From Limnanthes douglasii subsp. nivea (Eukaryota > Streptophyta > Magnoliopsida > Brassicales > Limnanthaceae): a stretch of DNA of 64,000 bases. Below the pieces are notes generated by a model. It saw nothing but the letters and a program-made list of their open reading frames with translations. It did not search any database and was not told the origin of the DNA. This document shows positions 1 to 61,603 of the stretch, in pieces. The DNA lies in the NCBI GenBank assembly GCA_036936605.1, contig JAUPFV010000002.1:123922376-123986375 (forward strand). The letters run 5' to 3'. Positions within the stretch are counted from its first letter, which is position 1. Each line of letters begins with the position of its first letter. Both the position numbers and the translations under genes were made by a program.

Positions 1-226
1 GGTTAGAAAGTGGCTTCAAAATTATAAATCTTTAAAAACTAGAAAAGGGGAAGAAAACATGAAATTATCCTTATATAGTTGGTAGAGGGTAATGTAGGTA
101 TTAAAAAAAAGTTGGAAATTAGTTGTGAGTATAATAGTTGAGATGTGTATTAAGTGGTAATAAAATGAAATTTTGGCATTAGATGACATTATAATAGTTG
201 AGTAGGTACTTTAGGTGCAATTTCTC
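1..226 (+). mobile_element. Right terminus of a second MULE, cut by the window edge
   Basis: This stretch aligns along its length, in the same orientation, with the right end of the 11.4-kb MULE (about 11930-12157). Shared landmarks are a ggttag start, a TATA-like ttatatagt, the phrase gttgagatgtgtattaag and the end aggtgcaatttctc, which matches aaatgcaatttccc. The interior of this copy must lie to the left, outside the window. It ends 486 bp before the next element, so two relatives sit side by side. Only terminal sequence is visible and coding content is unknown. Confidence 0.75.
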
Positions 227-703
227 TTTTTTAAATTTGTTATCTCATTTACTTTAAGTGTTTTATTTATTTAATTGATTATACCTTTGAATATTTTTTA
301 GTTTTTAAATGCTATAGCAAACTCGTTGATTATAATTTTAAATATTTTTTAGTTTTGAAATACTTTAAATACTTTAGGTGTTTTATTTATTTAATTGATT
401 ATAACTTTGTTATTGTTTGAAGTGCTAAAACAACCTGTTTATTTAAAAAAAAAAAGTGTGAATATGATCGAGTCAAAATATTTAAACAATTTAATGTTTT
501 TTTTCGATCAAAAAATAAGAAAAAAAGTAATACTCTAATAAAATATTATAACTTCCATCACGAATTCTTGTTGATTTTTGAATTAAAGAAATTGTTCATA
601 TATTCTTTGCAAAATAAATTGTAAAAATATTATATATTTGATTTATTATTTTTTATTTTTGGAAGAAATATTTTTTTTTTATTTAAACTTATATTAAAGG
701 GGA

Positions 704-712: not shown

Positions 713-825
713 TAGAAAAGTACCTGAAAATACCCACTCAACTATCTTATTACCCGGCGGTACCCGCTTTTAACATAGTGTTACTTAATACCCAGACTAA
801 TAAATTGGACAAAAATACCCTTCCA

Positions 826-835
826 CTATATATAC
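826..835 (+). promoter_or_regulatory. TATA box of the Ulp1-domain gene
   Basis: ctatatatac lies inside the left terminus, about 280 bp before the splice donor that ends the presumed 5' UTR exon (acag/gtatgc, intron from 1115). The right terminus holds a matching TATA for the transposase, so each end drives inward transcription. Confidence 0.5.
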
Positions 836-1114
836 CCATTTTTCAATTCTAACCCATTTTTTCGACCCTCCTATCACCCTAAACAAACGCAAAATTCTAA
901 TTTTAGAAACCACCAGAAAACAAACCGTTCGACTTCGTGATACTCTCTCTCTCTCAAAACAGAAACCCTACAGCTTCTCACCTTCGTCACTATCGCACCG
1001 GTCAGCCTCTTTTACTCAGACAAACTACACACCTTCAAATCTCATTCGACAAAGTTGTCGTGAAGTCGTCTTTGAAAGCTTCTATCTCGTTCTCCGACCG
1101 GTGAAATTTAACAG

Positions 1115-1624
1115 GTATGCATTATCGTGGAAAGTATACTTTTTTTTGCGTTTTTGACGAATTTGAACCACTTTTTTCTCTTAATTCACAATATGCGAGG
1201 CTGTTGATACTAGAATGAAGTATCTACTGACGATAGTTGCTCAGTTTATGGGTTTATAGTCGAAGCCAGGGTATAATTTTAGTTGCATGTAATACTGATA
1301 CTCTCCTGAGAAATATTATGTATGTTAGATCTGCATTAGGTAGTTCATTGTTGATTTTGGTGTTTGTTGCATAATTCCCAGATCCCTGCAACGTGCATGT
1401 AAAAAGTGTAACAGTTCGCATCCTGATAACCTACTATTCAAGCAATTCGCAGCTCAGTTAATATTTATACTTATTTGCATACAGTTCGCAGCTTGAGTTA
1501 TCTAATTCGCATCATGTCAGAACTTATTTCGCAGCTTGTCTGTTAAGCCAGTATTTATATGTATGCGGTTCGCAGCTTGTGATGCGAATTATTTGTGACA
1601 TTCCAACTGATTTGTGTTTGTGCA
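1115..1624 (+). other. 5' UTR intron holding motif cluster 1
   Basis: The intron runs from gtatgc at 1115 to ttgtgcag at 1624, seven bases before the ATG. Seven TTCGCA hexamers (either strand) fall between 1415 and 1588, including the spaced dyad TTCGCA-N8-TGCGAA at 1569-1588. None fall in the flanking exons. Confidence 0.6.
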
Positions 1625-1630
1625 GGAAGA

Positions 1631-4600
1631 ATGACAACAAAACCCAACTACTACAGATCAGGGTTGGTGAGCCTTCTAAAGCTACTAAAAGACATGCGTA
1701 TTACAAGGGCCCACATTGAAGCTGCAAGAAACACACCCTTCTACACGCTTCTGAAAACGGCGTTCGAAATCCGTAATGAGGAAGAGCTGCCTAGGAAAAA
1801 ATTCTACTCAATCATTCAGTATATCCTCAAGAAATTCTCTCTGGAAAGAGACGCCTTTAGGATTGGCAACAAGTATGTAAAGCTAACTACAAACGATATC
1901 AAGATCATATTCGGGCTGAGGCATGACACCGAGAAAATGGAGTTAACAAAAACCGGCGCTTTTCAAAACAAGTATGCAGCCGGCCAGGAGGACGAATCAA
2001 GGATGATGAAGAAATACTTCATGTCAAAAACTGGCAGGAAAGTATCAGCTAGTAATACCAAAACAATAACAAATTCCATCATAAAGGTACGTCTAAAATG
2101 GACTTCATCTTTATAAAGCAAGATTCTGTACATTTCTAACATAGAATGTTGTCATTGGTTTTACAGGAGGGTATAGAGAAGGCCATAAACGAAGGAGGGG
2201 AACATGAATTGGAAGACGTGGCGAGGCTGTTGATACTGTTTTTGTGCTCCACGCTATTCTACTCCGTATCTGGAGATATCTTGGGCTGGAGCACGGTTTA
2301 TTACGTTGAATACCTCAACAGAATAAACAATTACGACTGGGCTGGATCGATTCTGTTCAAGCTTCGACAGTTTATCAGGAGTTGCTTAGCAGTAGAAAGA
2401 GCCGATAAAGTCGTCGGCAGCGTCGCCCTTGTAGTTGTAAGATTGATCTATTCAATATAACAATTAGTTATGTACATAGCATCATGTTGATAAAACTTGT
2501 CCCCATGCAGCCCTTCATCATGGAGCACACAACAATCGGCCACGAGGTAGCGAAGCCAACCTCGATACCAAGGTTCTTCAAATGGTTGGGGTTAGAGTGC
2601 CACGCATCAACCATGGACTATCTTATTAAAACAACCTACCTGGATGATGACCAGGTATAAGCTTAATATATGTATTGAACTTGGGGTGCATACAGTTCGC
2701 AACCTATGATGCGAACTGCTTATAAAAATATCTCAAACATTTCGCAGCCTGATATGAATTTTACTTCTCAGCTTCATGTTCAGCACAGTTCGCATCATAT
2801 GTTTAATACTTAGTTCGCATCATATGGTTTACACTTAGTTCCCATCATATGTTTTACATATAGTTCGCATCATACTGTCCCATAATCATTTCGCAGCTTA
2901 ACATGCGAAATGTGATTTAAAACCACACAGTTCGCATCATATGATGCGAACTGCTTATAAAAAACAATTTGTTTGTCTACACCCTCATACTTTCGAAACA
3001 ATTAATTTACTTACATGTGCATCTGTTGGTAGGTTTTTGAAGGTCCATTACAGCTTACCGAGGCTGAAATTGAAGCTTTCGGAGAAAGAGAAGATGATGA
3101 AGATGGTGAAGATGCAGAAGTAACGGTACCTCCTTCACCGGAAGAAAGACCTAGGAAGAGGTCGAAAAGCACAGCATCAAAACCAAAAAAAAGGAGACCA
3201 GCATCACAGAATGTAACAAATAAGGTGATGTCTCCCACACTCGAACACCCAACACCACCCGAGCCATCGATTCCACCACCAAGACTCCCAAAGAAAACAA
3301 TTCCACCACAACCCAAAGGCAAATCCAGGCAAGAGCCCTCCGACACCGACACAACCAGTATGAGTGAAACGATCGGTGATTATTTATTCAAACGCAGAGA
3401 CCCTAATCCCGATATTGCTGCTCAATCAAAGCGTTTGAAGACGTACGCCGACAAGAACAAGTACGAGCGAAAAATAGAAAAACAGGCCAGAGAAGTAAGT
3501 ATGACTTGAACCTTAAATAATCACTACAATCAGCACTTAATATGTTTATAAAAAGTTTGCTATCATTTTTGCAGCTGAAAGAATTGAAACGCAAGATAGC
3601 GGAACTTGAAGCACAACAACTCCACAATGCTATCTCTCTGCCAATCTGCCGTACTGAAAGCCCAATAAAGCAGGTACCAACAGCACTTCCAGAGGGACAA
3701 AAATCCACTGATCAGCAAGCATCCGTGTCTAATGCTGATCAGCACACATTTCTTCCTGGAGTACTGCCGGAAGAAAGGGACGATGATGCCCACAATTCAC
3801 CCATCATGGAGACACATACACAGGAGGTAGATAATGTAAGTAGATGATATGATGTTATCAAACAAATATCAGGTTGAGCTGCGAATTATGTAATAAACTG
3901 GTTGGTTATTACTGGTTGGTCATTCCAAACGTTTCGCATGTTGAGCTGCGAATTATGTAATAACCTGGTTGGTTTTTACACAATTTGCATGCTAAGCTGC
4001 GAATTGTTAGGAGTGAATAACATAAATATCAGGTCAGGATGCGAAATGTGATTACACAATGATTAACTTATGCTTAACCCTTCCACCCTTTTTTTTATTT
4101 TATTTTTGTATGAAATAGGAGACCGAAAGACAACAACAACACCAGCAGAAACAGCAAGCCCAACAGCAACAACAGCAACAACAACAACAACACAAACAGC
4201 AACAACAACAACACGAACACGAACAGCAACAACAACAACACGAACAGCAACAACAGCAACAACAACAACAACATCAGCAACAAGAAGAAGAACACCGCCA
4301 GCAAAAGCAACAAGAAGAAGAACAACAACAACACCCCCAACAACAGGAACAATAGGAACAACAGCAACAACAACAACAACAACACGAACAGCAGCAACAA
4401 CAACAACAGCACCAACGAGAAGAACACCCCCAGCAACAACAACACGAAGAACACCCCCAGCAACACCAGCAGCCACATGTTCAACACGAAGACCGGCAAC
4501 AAGGACAAGAAGAACAACAACAGCAGCAACAGATAACCTTGGCGAAGAGAGAAAGGCTAACTCAAGAGGTAGCACCTCAAGAGTCAGAACCTGTCCATCC

Positions 4601-6664
4601 CGGTGAGAAGACAGAACTACTCAGCCAGGAAGGACCATCCTTAGAAGACAAAACCACTTCTTCGGTGGAACCTCAAAGACCAACGGTGCTGTCAGCAAAG
4701 TCAGAATTGCTAAGCCAACGTCAAACTGTAGGCCCGGTAACAAATCAACTGCCAGCTCCAGAGTCCCACGATAACACAGTAGGTTTACCTGATGCTTTTG
4801 TTGATGGTATTAGTACTCAAGTTTCACAGACATTTTTAAATGAAATTGATAATGTATATTACGATTCTATAATACAACGGTCTCTGGAGAACATGTCGGA
4901 GGATGACATTAATGATTTTGCCGACACGATCCAGCCTCTATGCCGAACAAGTCAACGGCAGTGGTTGTCGCTGACCGTGCGGTAAGGCCTACTTACAATG
5001 ATTTCGCATCATAACATGTGACTTGTGGCAAATGCTGATTGGAGTATTACAAAAAAATATCAGGGTATGATGCAAACTGTTCAGTGGAACCTCGAATAGT
5101 TCGCACCCTACCCTGATATATAATAATAAATTTATTTAACTGCTATCTTACAGTTCGCAGCCTAAGCTGCGAACTGTTTGGACTCGTTGCACTTATAATC
5201 ACTGACGCCCTCTACTTTTGATTTTTGTTTCATACTAAGCTCGAGACAGTTAATGAGATAGAGAAGCCAACTTTTGCACTACTGACACAAACGCAGCCTC
5301 AAGTGGCAGAGGAAGAAGAGTTCGTAATAACAATGCGGGAACCGCTAGTAGTAGAATACAGCGACTGGCCAAAGAAAACCAAAGTAACTGAGTGTATCGA
5401 TCTGGCACAATACCACAAAATACAGTTGGTTAAAGCCTACGAGAGTGACACCCCTGATCCAGTGGTATGGCAGTTACCGGAGTCCAAGTTTACGTACGGA
5501 ATCAGGGTGCAAGCGAGTGATCTCATGGCACTACCTTTAGAACTGGAGCTGGACGTAAAGGTATTCAATTGTCAACCAACTTTATTTTCAATGTTTCAAA
5601 TATGTATTCTATATTTAACATAAATCTACAACTCCTTTGTTAGCTTATCGATGCTTGGATTCGAAAGATGCTTGAAGATGCAGACTACAAAGTTCCATGC
5701 ACTAAAGCTAAGGGAGAGCATCACGACGCCATACTGATTTCTGGCATGACTGCGGTAAGTTTAGCTCACGTAAATAGACCAAAGTTCTCAGAAATGTTAT
5801 CACTTTAATATACTCTTGCTTGGATGCAGCATCAAATGAAAGCAGGGTGGCAAGTGGAAAATCTGGTGGACATGGCTTTTAGGAAGGGGCGCAAAAATGC
5901 CAACATCATCATGGTTCCAGTGTGCACCGAGTCGAAGGACAATACAAACCACTGGACGTTGCTCGTCATCGACGTTGACGCCTGCACAATTTCAAACTAC
6001 AACTCGCTTCTGCCTAAGCTTCATGCCATAGACAACACCGCAAGAACACCTGCACTACTGGTAAATATTCCAAACTATACACTTAAATCTGAACACATTT
6101 TAAGTATGCATGCTGCAAAATGAGATATGGTATGTTGCGAATGAGTGAGTAATCAAGATGTTTTTTCGCAGCCTGTCCATAACTTAATTCGCAGCCTGTC
6201 CATAACTTAATTCGCAGCCTATATATGTTGGATACAATTCGCAGCTTGTTCACAACTCAATTCGCAGCCTATCAAGGCTGTCATACAATTCGCAACCTAA
6301 GATGCGAATTGTGTATGATTTATTGTCATATAATTCGCAGCCTGAGGATGCGAATTGTATGTTACCAACTGTTTTTGTTTTTGTGCATATTCCTAACACT
6401 AATTATTATACACAGATCAAATATTTGTTGGATAGAGGATTCCTACCCAAATATAGTACAGGATGGAAGGTGAAAGTGGAAAGAGGCTTCCCACAACAAA
6501 AAAAAGGCACCGTGGACTGTGGTGTCTTTGTCTGCAAATATGCAAGGGATATTATTGAGCATGGATCAGTCCAGAAAAAATACGATACAGATATGGTGAC
6601 TGCCTTAAGAGCAGAAATGTTCTATTACTTTTTAAATGACATAGACACCGTCACATATGGCTGA
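1631..6664 (+). CDS. Ulp1-type (C48) cysteine protease of a KI-type MULE, ten exons, interrupted
   Basis: Proposed exons are 1631-2086, 2167-2436, 2511-2654, 3033-3494, 3575-3835, 4119-4981, 5240-5560, 5644-5754, 5830-6060 and 6416-6664, about 1,120 codons; nearly all junctions are phase 0. The N-terminal 290 residues resemble the DUF1985-type domain of plant transposon proteins (FRIGNKYVKLTTNDIKIIFG, then an EHTTIG segment). Exon 4 has a bipartite nuclear signal (PRKRSKS and KPKKRRP), exon 5 a short coiled coil (LKELKRKIAELEAQQL) and exon 6 a 130-residue Gln/His/Glu-rich tract. The last three exons form the protease fold: NHWTLLVID (His, 5950-5952), NYNSL where families usually have Asp (Asn, 6001-6003), Gln-Gln near 6494, and DCGVF (Cys, 6518-6520). 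A TAG at 4353-4355 stops the poly-Q frame, and the exon 6 to 7 junction has no clean phase match, so the gene is probably broken. The family cleaves SUMO or related conjugates; the substrate here is unknown. Confidence 0.8.
2655..3032 (+). other. Intron with motif cluster 2
   Basis: Ten TTCGCA hexamers (seven forward, three reverse) sit between 2696 and 2950. Three spaced dyads start at 2696, 2890 and 2931; the last, 2931-2950, is a perfect 20-bp palindrome. A near-miss (ttccca) occurs at 2839. CCTGATAT occurs at 2748. Confidence 0.7.
3836..4118 (+). other. Intron with motif cluster 3
   Basis: Five hexamers fall between 3880 and 4045, mostly in the reverse sense, with one N8 dyad at 3933-3952 and a one-mismatch dyad at 3984-4003. 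Two copies of aaatatcagg (the second motif, reverse sense) accompany them. Confidence 0.65.
4119..4500 (+). repeat. CAA/CAG/GAA trinucleotide-rich tract
   Basis: A long imperfect CAA/CAG array in the reading frame of the Ulp1-domain gene encodes mainly Gln with His and Glu. A Thr-rich frame and a Val/Leu-rich antisense frame across the same bases are by-products of the repeat. One CAG has become TAG at 4353-4355. Confidence 0.85.
4982..5239 (+). other. Intron with motif cluster 4
   Basis: Four hexamers lie between 5003 and 5173, including the N8 dyad at 5154-5173. CCTGATAT or its complement occurs twice (near 5058 and 5112). The splice sites here are the least certain of the gene: donor gtaagg at 4982 and the acceptor near 5239 do not match in phase. 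Confidence 0.5.
6061..6415 (+). other. Intron with motif cluster 5, including a 23-bp tandem repeat
   Basis: Ten hexamers fall between 6136 and 6354. Copies at 6165, 6188 and 6211 are the heads of an exact 23-bp tandem unit (motif plus gtccataacttaa). Dyads occur at 6289-6308 (N8) and 6334-6354 (N9, the one spacing exception). Confidence 0.7.
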
Positions 6665-6785
6665 TTCGTGTATTGCTTCTAAATACATTAGTTGCTTGTA
6701 AATACATATGTGTGTTGTAAAAAAAATTTTGTTGTGCATACATAAACAAAATTGTGATATATAATGAATATTCATTATCTTTTAG

Positions 6786-6971
6786 TTCGCATCATAACCT
6801 GATATATAATGATTGATTATTATCCTGGTATGTATGAACAGTTCGCAGCCAAACTTGTATGAATACTTCGCAGCCTAAATTATATCAAATAGTTCGCAGC
6901 CTAACCTGAGAGATGGTTATCACTACACACACAATTCGCATCCTGGTATACCAGCTTATAACCTGTTCGCA
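6786..6971. repeat. Motif cluster 6, intergenic
   Basis: Six forward TTCGCA copies occupy the spacer between the protease gene's stop codon and the promoter of the small ORF, together with CCTGATAT at 6799. There are no dyads here; all copies face the same way. Confidence 0.7.
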
Positions 6972-7142
6972 GCCTGGTGCATAAATAAAATATTAAATAA
7001 CATCATTCAAGAATACGAACCGGCTATGGTGTATGCCTTGGTAAACGTTTTCTGCATTGAGCACGCAAAAAACAATCTAATCATGTCCAGAACCCATTAA
7101 TTGCTGATTGGACATGGAGGCTATGTAATGATCACCTCCTTT

Positions 7143-7151
7143 CCCTATAAA
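7143..7151 (+). promoter_or_regulatory. TATA box of the small ORF
   Basis: ctataaata sits about 110 bp before the ATG at 7257, in a CT-rich leader typical of plant promoters. Confidence 0.55.
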
Positions 7152-7256
7152 TAACACTAGAAAACTAGAGGCTATTTTTAAAACAAACTCTACATTTTAA
7201 ACCAGAGCTATTTTTTAACAAACTCATTTCCCTCGTCTCTTCGAATTCAAAAAGTC

Positions 7257-7736
7257 ATGTCTTTTTCCACCACCACAACCACCACCTCATACTCAAACTC
7301 TGGTTCACTCGGTTCTCTGGGTGACTCCTGGTCATCCTTAACCGTTAACTGGAGTGATGAGTTGATCATGCCAGCAGCAGCACCAAACAGCCCAGTATCT
7401 GTTTTTGGGTTAGACATATATGATGACTACTACTCAATTGACTCTCAACCATTGGAAGTTGTTCCACAGCTTGCTGCTGAACCTCAGCCAGAACAGGTTC
7501 CTGCTGCACCTCAGCCAGAAATGGTGCAACCTCAAACGGCAGAGGTTCAAAACAACAAAAGGAAGAGGGAAGACGAAGGTGGTCCATCGAGGACAAAATT
7601 TTTAAGCATGATGGACGTTGATGTTGAAGCTGAGGATAAAGAGGAGAAAGGGAAAGAGAAAGTCGAAGACAAAGATGATCAGCACAAAAAGGAGAAAGAG
7701 GAAACAGTTGGTGATGAATCATCTACCAACTGCTAG
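7257..7736 (+). CDS. Small charged, probably nuclear protein encoded by the MULE
   Basis: A single-exon ORF of 159 codons with its own TATA box. The N-terminus is Ser/Thr-rich, the middle (about 70-100) is Pro/Gln/Glu-rich with a repeated PQPE phrase, residues about 101-104 form a basic KRKR patch, and the C-terminal 50 residues are Lys/Glu/Asp-rich. No cysteine cluster or enzyme motif is seen. I do not recognise the family. It lies between motif clusters 6 and 7 but contains no TTCGCA itself, as do the other coding exons, which supports it being a kept element gene. MULEs often carry a second ORF of unknown role (mudrB, vanB); equivalence is only a guess. Confidence 0.6.
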   Translation: MSFSTTTTTTSYSNSGSLGSLGDSWSSLTVNWSDELIMPAAAPNSPVSVFGLDIYDDYYSIDSQPLEVVPQLAAEPQPEQVPAAPQPEMVQPQTAEVQNNKRKREDEGGPSRTKFLSMMDVDVEAEDKEEKGKEKVEDKDDQHKKEKEETVGDESSTNC

Positions 7737-7902
7737 AGTTGGTTTTTGTTTTTTGTTTTTTTGAAATGCAACTAACTAGCAACAGCAGCTTGTAGTGATA
7801 TGTGTAAACAGTTGTTAGTTTCTGGATATATTTTGTAATCCTCCTTTTTGTAATCCAACTTGTAATCCTCCTTTTTGTAATCCAAATATATTTTGTACAT
7901 CA

Positions 7903-8480
7903 TTCGCATGTTAACCTGCTATATTACTCATTTTTTAACCTTACTGAATATCCTGGTATTTTATTAAATAACAATTCGAAGCTTATCACATGACAAATAT
8001 CAGGACTCCTAACTGAACTCCATTCGCATCACAATTCTGGCACTAATTCGCAGCCTATCATACGAAACGTACGATATGATAAATGTTTGATATGATTTTA
8101 CTAATGATTCGCACCCTGTTAAAATTTCACATAATTGTACATAATTCGCATGTAATCCTGATAGATGTTTGTAATCCGACTTGTAATCCTCCTTTTCAAC
8201 CTTACTGAATATCCTGGTATTTTATTAAATGACAGTTCGCAGCTTATCACATGACAAATATCAGGACTCCTAACTGAACTCCATTCGCATCACAATTCTG
8301 GCCCTAATTCGTAGCCTATCATGCGAAACGTAAGATAAGACAAATGTTTGATATGATTTTACCAATGATTCGCACCCTGTTAAAATTTTACATAATTGTA
8401 CATAATTCGCATGTAATCCTGATAGATGTTGTAACAAATATGTATGCGTATTGTACATAATTCGCAGCACAGGATGCGAA
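7903..8480. repeat. Motif cluster 7, intergenic
   Basis: Twelve hexamers lie in the spacer between the convergent small ORF and transposase gene. One exact N8 dyad is at 8461-8480, and one-mismatch dyads are at 8047-8066 and 8308-8327. Several CCTGATA or CCTGGTAT copies are interleaved. Much of the cluster was copied by the tandem duplication at 7937-8431. Confidence 0.7.
7937..8431. repeat. Tandem duplication of about 261 bp
   Basis: Unit 1 (7937-8171) and unit 2 (8198-8431) share the run from aaccttactgaatatcctgg to cctgatagatgtt with scattered substitutions. Each unit holds five or so TTCGCA-type motifs and two copies of the second motif. A smaller 27-bp repeat (ttgtaatcctcctttttgtaatccaa) lies just before, at 7833-7884. 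Confidence 0.8.
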
Positions 8481-8581
8481 ATGATCACAACTCCAATAGT
8501 AGCAAAAACAAAAAACACAGGAATGTACAAATGTCTAGTTTGATGTACAAAACAATAACTATGCTAAAAAAATAAATGTCC

Positions 8582-11133
8582 TTAAACTGGAACATCACAA
8601 GTCCTCCGGTTATGGCCTGATTTCGAACATCGGCCACACCTTAACTTCTTGGTTGAAATTTCTCCTCTAGAAGGGATTCGCTTTTTCTTAGGCCTTCCGG
8701 AGCGTCTCTTAACGTTCGGAGGCAGAACTTCAACAAAAGAAGGATCGTTAGCGTTGGACACTTTGCCGAAATCAGTTAGAACTGGTATGCTGAAAGAGTA
8801 ACTTTCCCTGTAATTCTTAACCGTAAAGAAGGGTTCTATTACAGTCAATGGATCTTGGTCAGTGTATTGTAATGCCTCTAGAGCATGAGCACATGGAAAA
8901 CACTCTTGTTTCCATGATCCGCATGAACATTTGAAATCCAACAGATTAACAACAGCCACAGGAGTCGAAAAGACTTCGAACATGGCGGAAGAGGACTTAC
9001 ATACTACCCAACTTCGGCACATGTCAACATTCTGCTTTAGCTTCTTCTCGTACTCGGGAACCAAATTAGTACTCCAGCTGAGACCTTCTTCGTATCTCCG
9101 TGAAACCTGAGTCATAGGCAAGACTCTAATCCAATCAATAAACTCAACAATTGGTAAGCCGCAATATTTTTTGATCTGATTGTTAAACGATTCAGCTGCG
9201 GTAGAAGCCATAGAGCCGTATCGCTTCCCTTTTACGTAAGCTTGGGCATACTTTTCAGGGGGTAAATTTGCAAGAAAATCACTCATTCTCTCACCACCTT
9301 CACATAAAAAACCTGTTAGTATCTCTTTAAAAAGCTCTTGACTAGGAGCGTAAGCAAGACGGTGGAAGAAACTCAACATCTTTTTTTTATACTCCCTGTT
9401 AGTATGTTCCAGTTTGGCTCTCAAATTCTGCATGAGATGGAAATAACAGTACGCATGATAGCAGTTTGGATACAAGACAGAAACAGCATTAACAATACCA
9501 GCATGACGGTCTGAAATAAATGTAATTTGGCGATCCAGCAAATGTGGTTTCAAACACCCCAAAAACCACATCCAATTGTCCCAATCTTCAATGCTAACTA
9601 CAGCAACAGCAACATGGAATAGTCCTGGAAAAAGGCAGATCAATTAAACACTACAACAGTATGCAAACATTTAAAAATTGTAAACAATTCGCATGATGTC
9701 TTGTAACAATTCGCAGCTTGTCATGCGAAATGTATGTGACATTTTAATTGATCATGCAAACAGTTCGCAACTTGTTATGTGAATTCGCAGCTTGTGGAAA
9801 CTTTAAATAATACCTAACTCAAGCTGCGATGTAAGTACAGTTTATTCAGCATAATACCTAATTCGCAGCCTCAACTGCGAAATGTGAGGATCACAACCCT
9901 GCTTAATTCGCATCACCTGCTGCGAATTACATCAGCATTTTCACACAAAAACATCGTTCATTAACTATATAAATGTAACTAACCGTTGTTTCCATCCTTT
10001 TCTACAGCAGTGAGCAATGTACCCTTGTACTTGCCATATAAGTGGGTTCCATCGACAAACAACATTGGACGGCATGAATGAAAACCACTAAGGGACGAAC
10101 CGAATGCTACAAAACAGCGCTTGAATCAGTTTCCAGCTGACAACTCCAACTGGCAGTCTGAAGTAATATCCCGGCTCTTCAAGCGTTTGAAGTATCCGCT
10201 TAGTAAACTAAAATAACTTGAACTATCTCCAAAAACTCCTCTCCTAGCCTTCTCTAAAGCATTCCATGACAAACGATAAGAGATATCAAGACCGTAATCT
10301 TGTTTGATAGTCGATTGTATGGTTTTGGCTGTCAACGAATGGCAGGTCCGGAGAGAATCCTGAATTTCCTCTGCAATCAAATCTGATGTCAAATGCCTGT
10401 GCCGCTTATGCTTATGCTTCTGGGAGAAAACATGACTGCAAGTATGGTACGGGAAATGCTTCTTTATCGTCATAAGGCCGGTGCTTGAGTCAATAGATGC
10501 ATAAACCCTCCATTTGCACCCGCTTGTGAGCTTATTTTCACAATAAGCAGTGATCTTATTTGTTGTGTTGTGCAGGTATTTGAAAGAAAAACCATGCTCT
10601 AACGTAAACTTGCACAAGGATAACCTCAGACCGGCAGCACCTTCTTCAAAAGCTTGACCCACCCCTGTAATAGCATCAGCCCAACCAGCAGTAGCAAGTT
10701 GTTTTTTCCTCTGATCAGAATTAACTAAACCGTTACTACTCTCCCCGCTAACTATTTGATCAAGAGATGGTTCTACCAAAACCAAGCTACGCTCTTTACG
10801 CTTACCACCAGAATCCTTACCACCAGAGCTCTTATCAACAGAACTTTTATTACCAGAACCCTTATCAAAGACGTGTTGTTCTATGAGAAAACTAACCCGT
10901 TTTAAACGCTCCAAATCAAGATATAACACCAACCCAGCAAAATCACTCTGGTTATTAAAGAAACAATTATTGTGATCCCTGCAGGAGTAAGTAATTAGGT
11001 ACTCACCTGTGGCAAGCTCCTCCCATGTGTTCTCTACATAAGCTTGGATACTTTCGAAGCTTTCAAACTCCGTGAAAGGCACAATTGCAGTTTGGTGACC
11101 ATATTTAAAAATACAAACTCGTGATTTAGACAT
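8582..11133 (-). CDS. mudrA-like: MURA-type MULE transposase with an in-frame stop
   Basis: Two exons, 11133-9984 and 9624-8582, join in phase to 730 residues. Residues 1-95 look like the PB1-like N-terminus of plant MURA proteins; about 150-240 is the MuDR DNA-binding region (Cys/His-containing, GCKWRVYAS and HTC). The DDE catalytic residues are in FVDGTH (Asp, 10051-10053), FISDRHAGI (Asp, 9509-9511) and AAESFNN (Glu, 9191-9193). A SWIM zinc finger follows (CSCGSWKQECFPCAHALEAL), then a GRPKKK AT-hook-like patch and a C-terminal CX2C-GHNRRTC knuckle. A TGA at 10128-10126 (codon 336) interrupts the frame just before FKRCFVAFG; homologues read straight through here. The stop could come from CGA by deamination. 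The protein would bind the termini and cut and paste the element. Confidence 0.9.
9625..9983 (-). other. Transposase intron with motif cluster 8
   Basis: The intron runs from GTTAG at 9983 to TTCCAG at 9625 on the minus strand and splits a glycine codon. Nine hexamers occupy 9688-9926, with three exact N8 dyads at 9710, 9862 and 9907. Confidence 0.75.
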
Positions 11134-11212
11134 CTCTTAACGTGGACAATACAAGTTATTTGTTATTAGTCTAAAAAACTAGGTGTAAAATATTTACTAC
11201 TGCATCAAACAA

Positions 11213-11396
11213 TTCGCATCCTAATATGCGAATTGTGTATACCTACAACTATCTATTCGCATCCTGTCCTGATATTTGTAGGTAACAAAGTCCTGATATT
11301 TGTCATTAGTCACAAAACTGTGCAGATTATTTACTGCACCATCAAACAATTCGCATCATAACATGCGAAATGTGTACATACATCGAGTAATTCGCA
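11213..11396. repeat. Motif cluster 9 in the presumed 5' UTR intron of the transposase
   Basis: Six hexamers lie between the transposase ATG (11133) and its promoter, with N8 dyads at 11213-11232 and 11350-11369. Four exact copies of tcctgatatttg occur between 11267 and 11480. The arrangement mirrors the left end, where cluster 1 lies in the leader intron. Confidence 0.7.
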
Positions 11397-11998
11397 GCTT
11401 GTCCTGATATTTGTGTATATCTACATATATCTATTTGCAGCCTCTCCTAATATTTCTATGTAGCACCGGTCCTGATATTTGTTTTGAAATACAATACTCT
11501 AACTGACCTAAAAACTCGTAATCTACACATTACCCACAAACTAAAGCACTACGAAATTAGAATATAACATCAGAAAACAAGGACGTAACTATATAGCGAA
11601 CAATATTAACTAAACAGATCACTATAACCAAAAAAATAGAGAAAAGCTCGAAATCAGGCAATGGCATCTAAAAACAGTAGACTAGAACCTATTCCAACAG
11701 AGAAAACGAATAAAAAACTTCGAAATCGGTAGGTAATTACCTAAAAAGCTCGCAACACGGTTACTTGTAAGCTATAAGATTCCAAAAAGCGACGATCAAC
11801 TCTTGTACGTATAAAACAGAGGTTAGACAGGTCTAACACAACAACTTACATAAAGAAACAAACCTTTAGCAGCTTCCGATCACCGGAAAATGTGATTTCA
11901 ACCCAGCTCGTGGTGGTTGGTAGGGTTAGGTGGTTAGAGCGGCTAACAAATTCAAATCTTCAAAAAGCTAGAAAAAATAGAAAGAAAACAGAAAAAGT

Positions 11999-12010
11999 GG
12001 TTTATATAGT
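11999..12010 (-). promoter_or_regulatory. TATA box of the transposase gene in the right terminus
   Basis: Read on the minus strand this is ctatataaacc, about 150 bp inside the right end. The remnant at 1-226 keeps the same box near 69-78. Confidence 0.5.
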
Positions 12011-12157
12011 GGGTTAAAGGTAGTTAGGGTATTAAAATAAAATTAGGTTGTAAGTAACAATAAAGTAGTTGAGATGGGTATTAAGTAACAATTGATCAAA
12101 CCTTGGGTGGTAAGTGACAATTGAATAGTTGAGTGGGTACTTTAAATGCAATTTCCC

Positions 12158-12166
12158 TATATTTTT
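12158..12166. repeat. Right target-site duplication of the MULE
   Basis: Exact copy of the 9-mer at 704-712, directly after the element end gcaatttccc. It fixes the right boundary at 12157. Confidence 0.8.
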
Positions 12167-12828
12167 CCTAATTTAAACTTATACTAGACTGATATTATTA
12201 TGTTTACTATTATTTTTTTAACATATTGACTCTACATGCCAATCTTTGCAGAGTCGAACGGATGTTTAGAAGATCAACTTGATTACTCTAAAGTACTATT
12301 TTAGGTATTTTCCGTTAATATTGATTACTCTAAAGTAGGTATTGTTTGTCATTGCCGAACCAAAAGAGTTTGATTTGAAGTTTGGTCGTATTGTCGAACA
12401 TTTGAATTTTGCTTTATTTTATGTATAGGGAGTTTGTCAATCATAACTTTTTCTTTACTTTTGGCCGCATGTGATCGATCTTGCCAGATTTGATGTGAAT
12501 GAATAAATGGGATTGGTTGTATGTGTCCTTTGTCTGATCCAATTACTTTTGGTCGAATTTTCATGGTTCTGAATAGTTCGAGATTTACTGTCGCTATTTC
12601 TATCTTGTTAAAAACTTCGCAAACTAAAAGCTCTTTCGAAAAAAATATATTATATTTGTATCTGAAAAGTTAATATATGTTCATGTGTACTATCCTTCGA
12701 AAGCTCGATTTATTCATAGCCTTTATTACGATCGTGGAGTTTACCAACTATCTCTTCAAAAGCTCGATTTACTCATGCCTTCAACATTTGTGAGAGATTT
12801 CCATGACAAGTTGGGGTAAATCAGGTGG
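12167..12828. other. AT-rich spacer, no gene seen
   Basis: No coding or repeat structure supported. Short ORFs are chance. A 13-mer atttaaacttata at 12171 also occurs at 681, just outside the left end of the MULE. Confidence 0.5.
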
Positions 12829-57331: not shown

Positions 57332-58024
57332 TCAACCTGGAGCATATATATTAATCATGCCCAACTTGTTACAAATATAAGTAATTCGTGATCCATTGAG
57401 CGCTTTTGTGAATATATCTCCTAGTTGTTCTCCTGTTTTGACATATCTCGTATGAATGAGATTTTGTTGAATCTTTTCGCGGATAAAATGACAATCAATT
57501 TCGATATGCTTCGTTCTTTCGTGAAAGACAGGATTAGACGCAATGTGCAAGGCCGCTTGATTATCACACCATAATTGCGCAGGCATGGTAGTCTTGATGC
57601 CAATATCATTTAACAATTGGAAAATCCAAATTATCTCACAAGTAGATTGAGCCATGGCTCTATATTCAGCTTCAGCACTTGATCGCGATACAACATTTTG
57701 TTTCTTACTCTTCCAAGATACCAAATTACCCCCTACAAAAACACAATAACCAGTGGTCGATCTTCTATCAGTTTTAGATCCAGCCCAATCTGCATCTGCA
57801 AAACACTCTATATTTGTATGACCAATACTGCCATACCACAATCCTAGTCCATGAGCTGATTTGAGATAACACAAGATATGTTCTAGTGCTGCCCAGTGAT
57901 TAACTGTTGGAGAAGACATAAACTGACTTACAACACTGACTGGATATGCAATATATGGTCGAGTTATTGTAAGGTAATTGAGTTTTCCTACTAATCGACG
58001 ATACTTTTCTGGATCACTAAACAA
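57332..58024 (-). pseudogene. pol: RT end and RNase H of the Copia element
   Basis: A 230-codon open stretch. It begins with YRRLVGKLNYLTITRPYIAY (end of RT) and includes the RNase H sites CFADADWAG (Asp), SRSSAEAEYRAM (Glu) and LWCDNQAALHIA (Asp), then HIEIDCHFIREK. It is separated from the upstream RT by a frameshift near 58100. Confidence 0.88.
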
Positions 58025-58070
58025 TTCTCTGTCATCTTTCAGTAATTACGAATTAGGAACCATTGCTGTA

Positions 58071-59198
58071 TTACATGGTTTTGCTCCTAGCTTTCCTGTT
58101 TCCATCAACAAATCTAGAACATATTTTCTCTGCGATAAAAAGAATACCTTTGTTGTTTCTTGTTATTTCAACCCCCAAAAAATACTTCAATGGTCCAAAA
58201 TCTTTTGTTTGAAATCGCGAATGTAAAAATGTTTTAAGAAATGAAATGCCTTTAGTATCATTCCCAATAATAATGATGTCATCTACATATACAACAACGA
58301 GTATAATTTCATTTTGCAGAACGTTTATAAAAGAAGAGTGATCACAGCTGCTCTTCTTCAACCCAAATTCATTTAATGCATCACTAAACTTGCCAAACCA
58401 AGCACGGGGACTTTGTTTTAATCCGTATAATGACTTACACAAACGACATACCTTTCCTTTCTCCCCCTGAGCAACAAATCCGGGTGGTTGCTCCATATAG
58501 ACTTCTTCTTGGAGGTCTCCATGTAAAAATGCATTTGTAATATCTAATTGATGTAATGGCCAATCATTTGATGCTGCTAAAGAAATAAGTAAACGAATAG
58601 AGGTAAACTTAGCTACCGGAGAAAAGGTTTCAGAGTAATCAACACCATAGGTTTGAGCATATCCTTTTGCAACAAGTCGTGCTTTGAGACGAGCTAGCGT
58701 CCCATCTGGATTCATTTTTACATTAAACACCCATCTACAACCGATAGCTTTCTTACCATTGGGTAAATCAACCAACTTCCAAGTACCAGTGTCTTCTAAT
58801 GCTCTTATCTCTTCAAACATTGCAGCTTGCCCGCCAGAATGACATAATGCTTCATGAACAGTTTTTGGAATAGAAATAGAATCAAGAGATGCAATAAAAG
58901 CTCGGGTAGAAGAAGGTAATTGATCATATTTTGCAAAAGAAGAAATTGGATAAGTACATTGTCTTTTACCTTTTCGAAGAGCAATAGGGAGATCGGGAGT
59001 GGACTCATTATTATTTGTAGCAGGATCTGAAGACGAAGGAATTGGTAGTGGACATGATGGAGGAGGTGCTTTACGTCGAGAATAAATATATCTAATGGGA
59101 GGTCGATATGGTGGAGGTGGTACATCAGATCTTTGAACGGTGGTGTACATGAGTAAATCATCATCGACAGTAGTTGTTTCTAGATCGACATTAGACAA
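58071..59198 (-). pseudogene. pol: Reverse transcriptase of the Copia element
   Basis: A 375-codon open stretch with the usual RT blocks: CRWVFNVKMNPDGTLARLKA, LVAKGYAQ, SIRLLISLAA, LDITNAFLHGDL and YGLKQSPRAW. The catalytic YVDDIIIIGND lies at 58289-58278. The N-terminal third is the Pro/Ser-rich linker after integrase. Frameshifts close both ends. Confidence 0.9.
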
Positions 59199-59221
59199 AC
59201 CAGGAAAAAATGGAACATGTT

Positions 59222-59878
59222 CTAGAAATGTAACATCCTTGGATACAATGTAACGATAAAGAGATGGGGAAAATATTTATAGCCTTTTTGAAACCTAGAA
59301 TATCCAAGAAAAACACATTTTAAGGATTTGGGATCTAATTGTGTACGAGTAGGACTTACATCCCTAACAAAGCAAGTACAGCCAAAAATGCGTGGTTCAA
59401 CAGGAAATAGAGGTTTAGACAGAAAAAGCACGGAATATGGAATATTATTTGAAAGAACAGTAGACGGCATACGATTAATTAAAAAACAGGCAGTGGAAAC
59501 AGCATCTGCCCAAAATAATTTCGGTACTTTCATTTGAAGAAGTGCACGAGTAACCTCTAAAAGATGTCTATTTTTTCTTTCAGCAACACCATTTTGAGAT
59601 GGCGTGTCCACACACGAAGTTTGGTGAATCATTCCTTTTTTTTCCATAAATAATTGAAATGCATTTGAACAATATTCTTTACCATTATCACTTCTTAAAA
59701 TATGAATAGGACAATTAAATTAGGTATTTATTTCTGCAGTAAACGTGCAAAATATTGAGAATAACTCAGAACGATTTTTCATTAAATATAGCCATGTAAC
59801 ACGAGAATAATCATCAACAAAAGTAACAAAATATTTAAAACCAGTTTTAGAAACAACGGGACAAGGACCCCAAACATC
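59222..59878 (-). pseudogene. pol: Integrase of the Copia element
   Basis: The core runs from DVWGP just after a stop (tta 59879-59881) through SDNGKEY to NGVAERKNRHLLEV (catalytic Glu) and LGYSRFQKGYK. A second stop lies at 59720-59722. Both stops stand where relatives have coding triplets. A frameshift near 59262 leads into the RT stretch. Confidence 0.85.
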
Positions 59879-60832
59879 TTAATGAACTATTTCAAAAGGA
59901 AACGTAGCCCGTTTATTAATACGAGGATATGATGGAAGACGATGATGTTTAGCAAATCTACATGACTCACACTCTAATGATGTCAAATGCCGAAATTTAG
60001 GATAAAGTTGTTTTAAAGAGATTAAAGATGGATGACCCATACGACAATGTGCTTCAAATGGAGATGTAATACTAGAACACGCAGTAGATGTATGATAGTC
60101 TTTATCAAGATAGTAGATACCTCCACTCTCATGCACTCTACCAATTATTGTATTCGTCGTAAGATCCTGAAACAAACAATGATCGGAATAAAAGGTAACA
60201 AAACAATTTAGTGTTTTAGTGAGTTGGCTAATAGAAATAAGGTTGAATGAAAACTGAGGGAGATGTAAAACAGATGTCAAAGAGATATTTTTGGTGGGAT
60301 TGACAGTCCCTGAACCTAAAACACGAGATGATGATCCATCTGCCAATGTGACATTAGAATGATGTGTATTTGAAAGAGAAGTAAAAACTTGTTTATTACC
60401 TGTCATATGTTCTGTGGCAGCAGAATCAATGACCCAATCAGAGGATGAAGAAATAAGACATGTAGTTGAGTTACCTGACACACAAGCTGCAGGGTTTGTA
60501 AGATCTTGTGACTTTAGAGACTCTTGGTACTTGGAAAATTGAGCATATTCCCCAGCGGAAAGCACATGAGGTTCCTCATTCGTTACCATATTAGCAAATT
60601 GTTGAGGTAGTTGAGGATAATTCCACTTTGTATGACCACGTTCATGACAGTAAAAACATTCAACATTGTTTAGATCACCTCTATGGTTACCGCAACTGTT
60701 ATGTCTATTGTATCCATCTTGACTATTGTATCCACCACGACTACCGCGATTACTGTATCCACCACGATTACCACGATAGTTTGATCTACCACGACTACCA
60801 TAATCGTTATATCCACCACGACCACCACGCAC
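59879..60832 (-). pseudogene. gag-pol: Zinc knuckle, protease and integrase N-terminus of the Copia element
   Basis: A Gly/Arg-rich RGG-like stretch (first 60 codons) precedes a CX2CX4HX4C knuckle in which the last Cys is Tyr (CFYCHERGHTKWNY). The protease block reads WVIDSAATEHMTG where D-S-G-A is usual. The integrase zinc region (HCRMGHPS and CESCRFAKHH) follows. Ends at the stop before DVWGP. Confidence 0.85.
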
Positions 60833-60939
60833 ACCAGATCTGCCACGATTGTTGTAACTATAAGCGTCGCGACCACCACGACCATCACGACTATTATGAC
60901 CATCTCGATCATCAGAAAAACCAGGTTTATTGGTGCTGA

Positions 60940-61557
60940 TTAATACACTAGTGACAGGTTGTACTGGCTGTGAGTTTTCGGTTCGAAGAAGTCTAGCAAA
61001 AATTTCATGTAGAGATGATATCTCATATCCAGCGAGGTTTGAGATTTTGCACTATCAAACTCCGAAGGAAGACCAGCAAGAAAACTCATTACAGCCATTT
61101 GTTCTCGTTGCAATTGTTGACTTTTAATATCAGTACTGAAGGGTAACAAAACATTAAGTTCTTCGTAGATGCGTTTGAACTCCATAAAATATGTCGTAAG
61201 AGACTTATCTTGTTTTTCAGTACGATAAAAAGACTTGCAGACATCATAGATACGCGATATATTACCTTTTCCCGCATATAGAAATTCCAGATATTCCATT
61301 AACCCTTTAACGTATTCACAATGATTAACAAGACTAAGTACCTCAGTAGTGATTGTATTTTGAATCTGAAGAAAAAGGCGAGCATCATCACGCATCCAAT
61401 TTCTTGTTGTGTCATCCGTAGGAGGATCTTGTATCAAATGGTCATCTTTTTCTATACTTCGTAAATAGATACGAATTGTTTTACTCCAATCTAAGTAATT
61501 GGATTCGTTCAATTTCTGTTCTGTGATTTTTGTCATCACAGGAACCAAATCAGACAT
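60940..61557 (-). pseudogene. gag: gag of the Copia element
   Basis: 205 codons from ATG 61557, about 60 bp inside the primer site. NYLDWSKTIRIYLRS is the UBN2/retrotran_gag-type start and MSFLAGLPSEFDSAKSQ the gag end. A frameshift near 61030 takes the frame off before the RGG region. Confidence 0.85.
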
Positions 61558-61603
61558 ACTTTTCCTTTCCTCCGTCTAGATTTTTTTTTATAGAAACCCT
61601 AAT

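Follow-up and report, generated by a model that had tools for sequence, protein, structure and literature searches.

The MULE near the start of this window (the whole 64-kb stretch of Limnanthes douglasii subsp. nivea DNA analyzed here) is densely studded with the hexamer TTCGCA, which raises the question of what, if anything, reads these sites. We counted 77 copies on both strands of the window, compared with a mean of 19.4 when the whole window was shuffled, and 77 was reached in none of 100 shuffles. Exactly 69 of them lie at 1415-11396, where the original prediction had put about 69, and they fall into the nine clusters that it had described, with all coordinates matching (Table 1). Outside the MULE, the window holds 8 copies versus 14.1 expected, so that the "handful" reported for the other 52 kb represents no enrichment; in 1-kb bins the element peaks at 16 TTCGCA/kb and every bin past 12 kb has at most one. 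As had been stated, most copies (51 of 69) extend to TTCGCAKC, and the extended word is YANTTCGCAKCHTR.

Table 1. Positions (in window coordinates) of the MULE, its genes, the TTCGCA clusters, the second word and a related element end.
Feature	Position	Strand	Content	Remarks
MULE	714..12158		~11.4 kb	weakly alignable inverted ends; near-matching 9-bp flanking repeat
Gene 1	1631..6663	+	~10 coding exons; C-terminal Ulp1/Peptidase_C48	candidate anti-silencing protein
Gene 1 exons	1631-2086, 2167-2436, 2511-2654, 3033-3494, 3575-3835, 4119-4981, 5240-5560, 5644-5754, 5830-6060, 6416-6663	+
Small third ORF	7257..7736	+	159 aa
Transposase gene, mudrA-like	8585..11133	-	DBD_Tnp_Mut, MULE domain, sub-threshold SWIM
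Cluster 1	1415..1588		7 TTCGCA	leader intron of gene 1; convergent pair at 1569
Cluster 2	2696..2950		10 TTCGCA	intron; pairs at 2696, 2890, 2931
Cluster 3	3880..4045		5 TTCGCA	intron; pair at 3933; two TTCGCA-N6-CCTGATAT composites
Cluster 4	5003..5173		4 TTCGCA	intron; pair at 5154; one composite
Cluster 5	6136..6354		10 TTCGCA	intron; pair at 6289; 15-bp pair at 6334; short 23-bp tandem array 6165-6220
Cluster 6	6786..6971		6 TTCGCA, all +	spacer between gene 1 and small ORF; no pair; one composite
Cluster 7	7903..8480		12 TTCGCA	spacer; pair at 8461; contains 261-bp tandem duplication (~7932-8434)
Cluster 8	9688..9926		9 TTCGCA	transposase intron; pairs at 9710, 9862, 9907
Cluster 9	11213..11396		6 TTCGCA	upstream of transposase; pairs at 11213, 11350; two composites
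Second word CCTGATAT	2748, 3866 (-), 4026 (-), 5057 (-), 5112, 6798, 7997 (-), 8258 (-), 11268, 11292, 11403, 11471		12 copies	within 2748..11478
Second related MULE, end only	1..227			same orientation; 70% identical to 11932-12158; cut by window start

Under our gene model, which was drawn by eye on one damaged copy in one window, all 69 copies fall in the 5,438 bp of non-coding DNA of the element and none in its 6,005 bp of coding sequence (13 modeled segments), in keeping with the earlier report of none in roughly 6 kb of coding exons; slightly corrected coding borders gave the same 69 to 0 split. A Markov-1 model predicts 2.37 copies in the non-coding and 2.40 in the coding part, close to the five or so that had been expected by chance, and the excess in element non-coding DNA has Fisher p values of 4e-23 against coding sequence and 8e-62 against the flank. 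TTCGCA with its complement is the top-enriched 6-mer of the element non-coding DNA relative to the flank (69 versus 0.84, z 50), and in none of nine control stretches of 5.4 kb did the best 6-mer exceed a z of 8.1. Codon shuffling of the coding sequence leaves a mean of 2.04 copies and a probability of zero copies of 0.117; the empty exons are thus compatible with chance, the real signal is the excess in non-coding DNA, and we dropped exon avoidance as evidence. The claim that the motif is kept in every intron was likewise abandoned, since only 6 of the 11 modeled introns carry it (258-516 bp long, the leader intron being measured to the ATG, with 4-10 sites each) and the other five, all short (74-83 bp), lack it. 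Modeled introns account for 45 of the 69 sites and the two spacers for 18, and the outer 701 bp and 762 bp of the proposed element are free of TTCGCA, where 8.9 and 9.7 copies are expected at the mean non-coding density.

The sequence marks the element as a MULE: its putative terminal repeats are weak, and it carries a transposase gene and, on the opposite strand, a gene that ends in Ulp1/C48. Alignment of the inverted ends scored 136 versus a maximum of 113 among 200 base shuffles, the ends being only weakly alignable, and the flanking repeat (705-713, ATATTTTTT; 12159-12167, ATATTTTTC) matches by eye at 8 of 9 positions, a weak match in AT-rich DNA. The transposase domains PF10551 (E 3.6e-9) and PF03108 (E 1.8e-8) identify a mudrA-type MULE. 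Its intron (9627-10014) and an in-frame TGA (10126-10128), beyond which the frame continues, were both located by eye. When the second transposase exon was searched against proteins, 41 of 1,142 candidates matched at E ≤0.001 with 24-42% identity (40% for the top match), and the 33 with source names are all from eudicots (Fragaria, Camellia, Erythranthe, Humulus and others). The small third ORF had no match in Pfam. The end of a second, related MULE at the window start has no TTCGCA in its 227 bp, and the remains of a Copia-type LTR retrotransposon (RVT_2, integrase pieces, gag_pre-integrs and gag, over several frames) lie on the minus strand at 57335-61575.

Gene 1 ends in a Peptidase_C48 domain (PF02902, E 7.5e-14 on the plus-strand exons 5240-6663). 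Ulp1 proteases carry a YDSL motif; in the C48 domain of gene 1 (5830-6663), NHW and DCG motifs are present and YNSL stands at the expected YDSL position, which suggests that the protease may be inactive. The N-terminal part gave two sub-threshold matches, to PMD (E 0.13) and to Tup_N (E 0.001); PMDs captured by MULEs have been speculated to serve anti-silencing (PMC5418596). A HMMER search for DUF1985 in exons 1631-3835 or 1631-2654 at E 10 gave no match, at a sensitivity that a diverged domain might escape. Protein searches at E 0.001 returned no homologue of the N-terminal part among the best 7,993 candidates and none of the C48 part among 741 candidates, and the structure predicted without an alignment for exon 1631-2086 alone has a mean pLDDT of 49.7. 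Exon 4119-4981 is glutamine-rich, contains an in-frame TAG and is followed by a misfit in phase; it is made of a CAA/CAG-like repeat, and VANC proteins, too, are described as having variable repeat regions (PMC5735166). With one in-frame stop each in gene 1 and the transposase gene, this copy may be dead.

The sites follow a grammar that the original prediction had overlooked, as it had the motif-free ends and the scarcity of CpG-decay forms described below. Convergent pairs of the form TTCGCA-N8-TGCGAA (20 bp) occur 13 times at an offset of exactly 14 bp and once at 15 bp, the next convergent offset being 36 bp; random placement of sites inside the clusters (1000 runs) produced a mean of 0.39 and a maximum of 3 pairs at 14 bp. 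Inverted pairs, the 15-bp one included, hold 28 of the 69 sites and leave 41 unpaired, four additional sites have a one-mismatch partner at the 14-bp offset, and the centers and flanks of the pairs vary from one pair to another. With TTCGCA masked, the top 8-mer of the element non-coding DNA is CCTGATAT, with 12 copies versus 0.1 expected; coding sequence has none, and the window outside the element has one. Six of these 12 copies begin precisely 12 bp past the start of a TTCGCA, forming the composites of Table 1, and in 2000 jitter runs no single offset gathered more than 4; there are three further one-mismatch composites, two of which are copies of each other within the 261-bp duplication.

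Unpaired sites lie mostly on the plus strand (36 plus, 5 minus), and they do so in the introns of the plus-strand gene (16 and 4), in the two spacers (15 and 1) and in the intron of the minus-strand transposase gene together with the DNA upstream of that gene (5 and 0). Motif orientation is therefore independent of the direction of transcription, and this indifference, together with the site grammar, favors a protein that binds DNA. The DNA-level binding proposed earlier thus finds support in the fixed-spacing pairs, the single CCTGATAT offset, the presence of sites in introns and spacers alike and an orientation that does not track the genes.

Every TTCGCA core contains a CpG, and the cores hold 69 of the 139 CpGs in the element non-coding DNA. 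Outside the cores, the CpG observed/expected ratio of this DNA is 0.55, only moderately under that of coding sequence (0.65) and flank (0.74), and the TG+CA ratio is 1.36 (1.23 in coding sequence, 1.05 in the flank); the low CpG and raised TG+CA ratios suggest decay through methylation. Decay forms of the motif are few: at non-coding TTNNCAKC the middle bases are CG in 51 cases, TG in 4, CA in none and others in 4, and when the upstream half serves as anchor (YANTTNNCA) they are CG in 55, TG in 3, CA in 1 and others in 17. TTTGCA occurs 8 times and TTCACA 5 times in the element non-coding DNA, where the flank rate predicts about 3.2 and 5.7. Scarce decay forms despite signs of decay nearby fit either retention of the core or its recent renewal. 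The two copies of the 261-bp tandem duplication (7932-8434; 94% matches) contain several TTCGCA sites, some of which differ between the copies; of 12 substitutions, 3 fall in cores versus 1.8 expected by length (36 of 243 bp core; hand count), so that no constraint on the motif is visible there, and with the duplication speaking against it we dropped purifying selection on the motif within this copy.

How does this array compare with known systems? In VANDAL21 of Arabidopsis, VANC21 occupies YAGTATTAY within introns and within the intergenic and terminal non-coding DNA, where the motifs form same-orientation tandem arrays, and VANC6 acts on AGTTGTCC/AGTTGTAC; both words are short, dense in non-coding DNA and found mainly outside coding sequence (PMC5735166). 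RdDM and VANC have been described as competing over non-coding DNA, and VANDAL ends as degenerate (PMC10398659, PMC6446971). Our element resembles VANDAL21/Hiun and VANDAL6 as a MULE with extra genes beside the transposase gene, apparently degenerate ends and a dense short word confined to non-coding DNA (69 of 69 under the gene model). It differs in that TTCGCA holds a CpG, which YAGTATTAY and AGTTGTCC/AGTTGTAC lack, and in that no DUF1985 was detected in gene 1 by HMMER. The VANC21 arrays run in one orientation and reach the terminal parts, whereas here 28 of the sites stand in inverted pairs, only 23 of the 69 in TRF arrays, and the outer 700 bp are empty; the unpaired sites do lie mostly in one orientation. 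A CpG in each core, inverted pairing at a fixed spacing (13 pairs) and a second word at a fixed offset are absent from the VANC descriptions with which we compared it.

A parallel in gene layout is found among KI-MULEs, in which mudrA and the ULP gene run in opposite directions (PMC2528002). According to a 2026 review, the Ulp1 domain is conserved in eudicots, and KIU genes, that is, Ulp1-carrying VANC genes of eudicot MULEs, act on non-coding motifs of their own kind (PMC13317346); Sasaki et al. 2022 (EMBO J) treated the co-evolution of eudicot VANCs and described the KIU motifs, as cited in PMC12312487, PMC12844716, PMC13317346 and PMC10398659. An independent system is therefore not established, and the element may simply be a divergent member of the KIU type. 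Like the KI-MULE/KIU elements of Arabidopsis, melon, grape and rice, it has several genes, with an Ulp1/C48 gene opposite mudrA; unlike them, the two parts of gene 1 that we searched have no protein match at E 0.001 among the candidates scored. A literature search for TTCGCA with transposon and plant, in whose scope the 2022 eudicot VANC study did not fall, found no mention of TTCGCA among the matches listed. A scan of 2.9 million viral contigs for TTCGCA-N8-TGCGAA found 30 stretches (28 with one pair, 2 with two) at 0.32-1.86 TTCGCA/kb, which we judged to be chance, and no array.

We consider it probable, on balance, that the TTCGCA sites are DNA-level binding sites for a protein encoded by the MULE, likeliest that of gene 1, in an anti-silencing system of the VANC type. 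Since Ulp1-carrying VANC genes act on their own motifs, we infer that the Ulp1 gene observed opposite the transposase would be the first candidate for the binder. The protein would load cooperatively on the clusters, dimerizing on the 20-bp inverted pair and occupying single sites and composites either as a monomer or together with a partner; once bound along the long non-coding stretches over which the array extends, it would counter host methylation and silencing, presumably with demethylation, much as VANC does in Arabidopsis VANDALs. Of the VANC-like reading put forward originally, the distribution, the gene layout and the weak ends fit, and the candidate protein, having no Pfam match to DUF1985, does not. 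The undetected DUF1985, the absence of a homologue among the candidates scored, the unconstrained duplication and the stops in two genes count against this reading, as do the inverted pairs and motif-free ends that set the array apart from that of VANC21 and the CpG ratio outside the cores, which is only moderately under that of coding sequence and flank. As every core contains a CpG, its methylation state could, speculatively, affect binding directly. We regard as possible but doubtful a more specific version, in which the inverted 20-bp pairs and composites form a CpG-bearing modular code of the anti-silencing system, the element's own protein reads site methylation as a switch (bound and open versus methylated and lost), and the protein of this MULE lineage lost DUF1985 or never had it.

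Among the alternatives, binding of the sites by the transposase or an accessory TnpA-like protein for excision and insertion, with the transposase itself perhaps being the anti-silencing factor, seems unlikely to us. CACTA elements do carry clusters of short motifs, direct and inverted, to which a TnpA-like protein is believed to bind (PMC2613891), maize MURA has been reported to induce hypomethylation of terminal repeats, activation of TnpA correlates with demethylation (both PMC10398659), and the transposase of this MULE has a DBD_Tnp_Mut domain. The spread of TTCGCA through the long internal introns and spacers and the empty ends nevertheless argue against end recognition by a transposase. 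The maize TnpA 12-bp site holds a CpG. In En/Spm, an element-encoded protein reads short sites that cluster in both direct and inverted order; in En/Spm and the CACTA superfamily these sites are subterminal, unlike the internal arrays and motif-free ends of the present element with its MULE transposase. Somewhat less credence is due to a host transcription factor for which the sites would serve as scattered enhancers, or as boundary sites, of the element genes: palindromic pairs and composites do resemble ordinary transcription factor grammar, but TTCGCA shows no enrichment in the other 52 kb of the window, and promoters seldom have arrays in introns at a distance from the start.

We find it improbable, more so than a host factor, that the array is a functionless minisatellite in which one unit was multiplied by slippage and local copying. 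Short tandem arrays (periods of 22-25 bp) and the 261-bp duplication, in which the motif is unprotected, do contain 23 of the 69 sites; the other 46 lie outside the TRF arrays, and the nine separate clusters with differing flanks, the fixed pairing and composite offsets and the few CpG-decay forms all speak against such growth. Least probable of all, in our estimation, is a role at the RNA level, as a splicing signal or as hairpins of intronic RNA: the inverted pairs could fold in single-stranded RNA and most sites lie in modeled introns, but the spacers hold 18 sites, five short introns have none, unpaired sites in the transposase intron read antisense and those in the gene 1 introns mostly sense, and 41 of the 69 belong to no inverted pair.

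In the literature covered, sequence-specific anti-silencing by transposons is described in detail for a few Arabidopsis families. If the anti-silencing reading is correct, this MULE would provide a second code, with a visible site grammar, in another plant lineage, and would indicate how far such systems diversify. It would also allow a direct test of dimeric recognition, offer a new pair of DNA word and protein for locus-specific demethylation, and suggest a testable rule by which a long MULE intron equals a short one with a landing array added.
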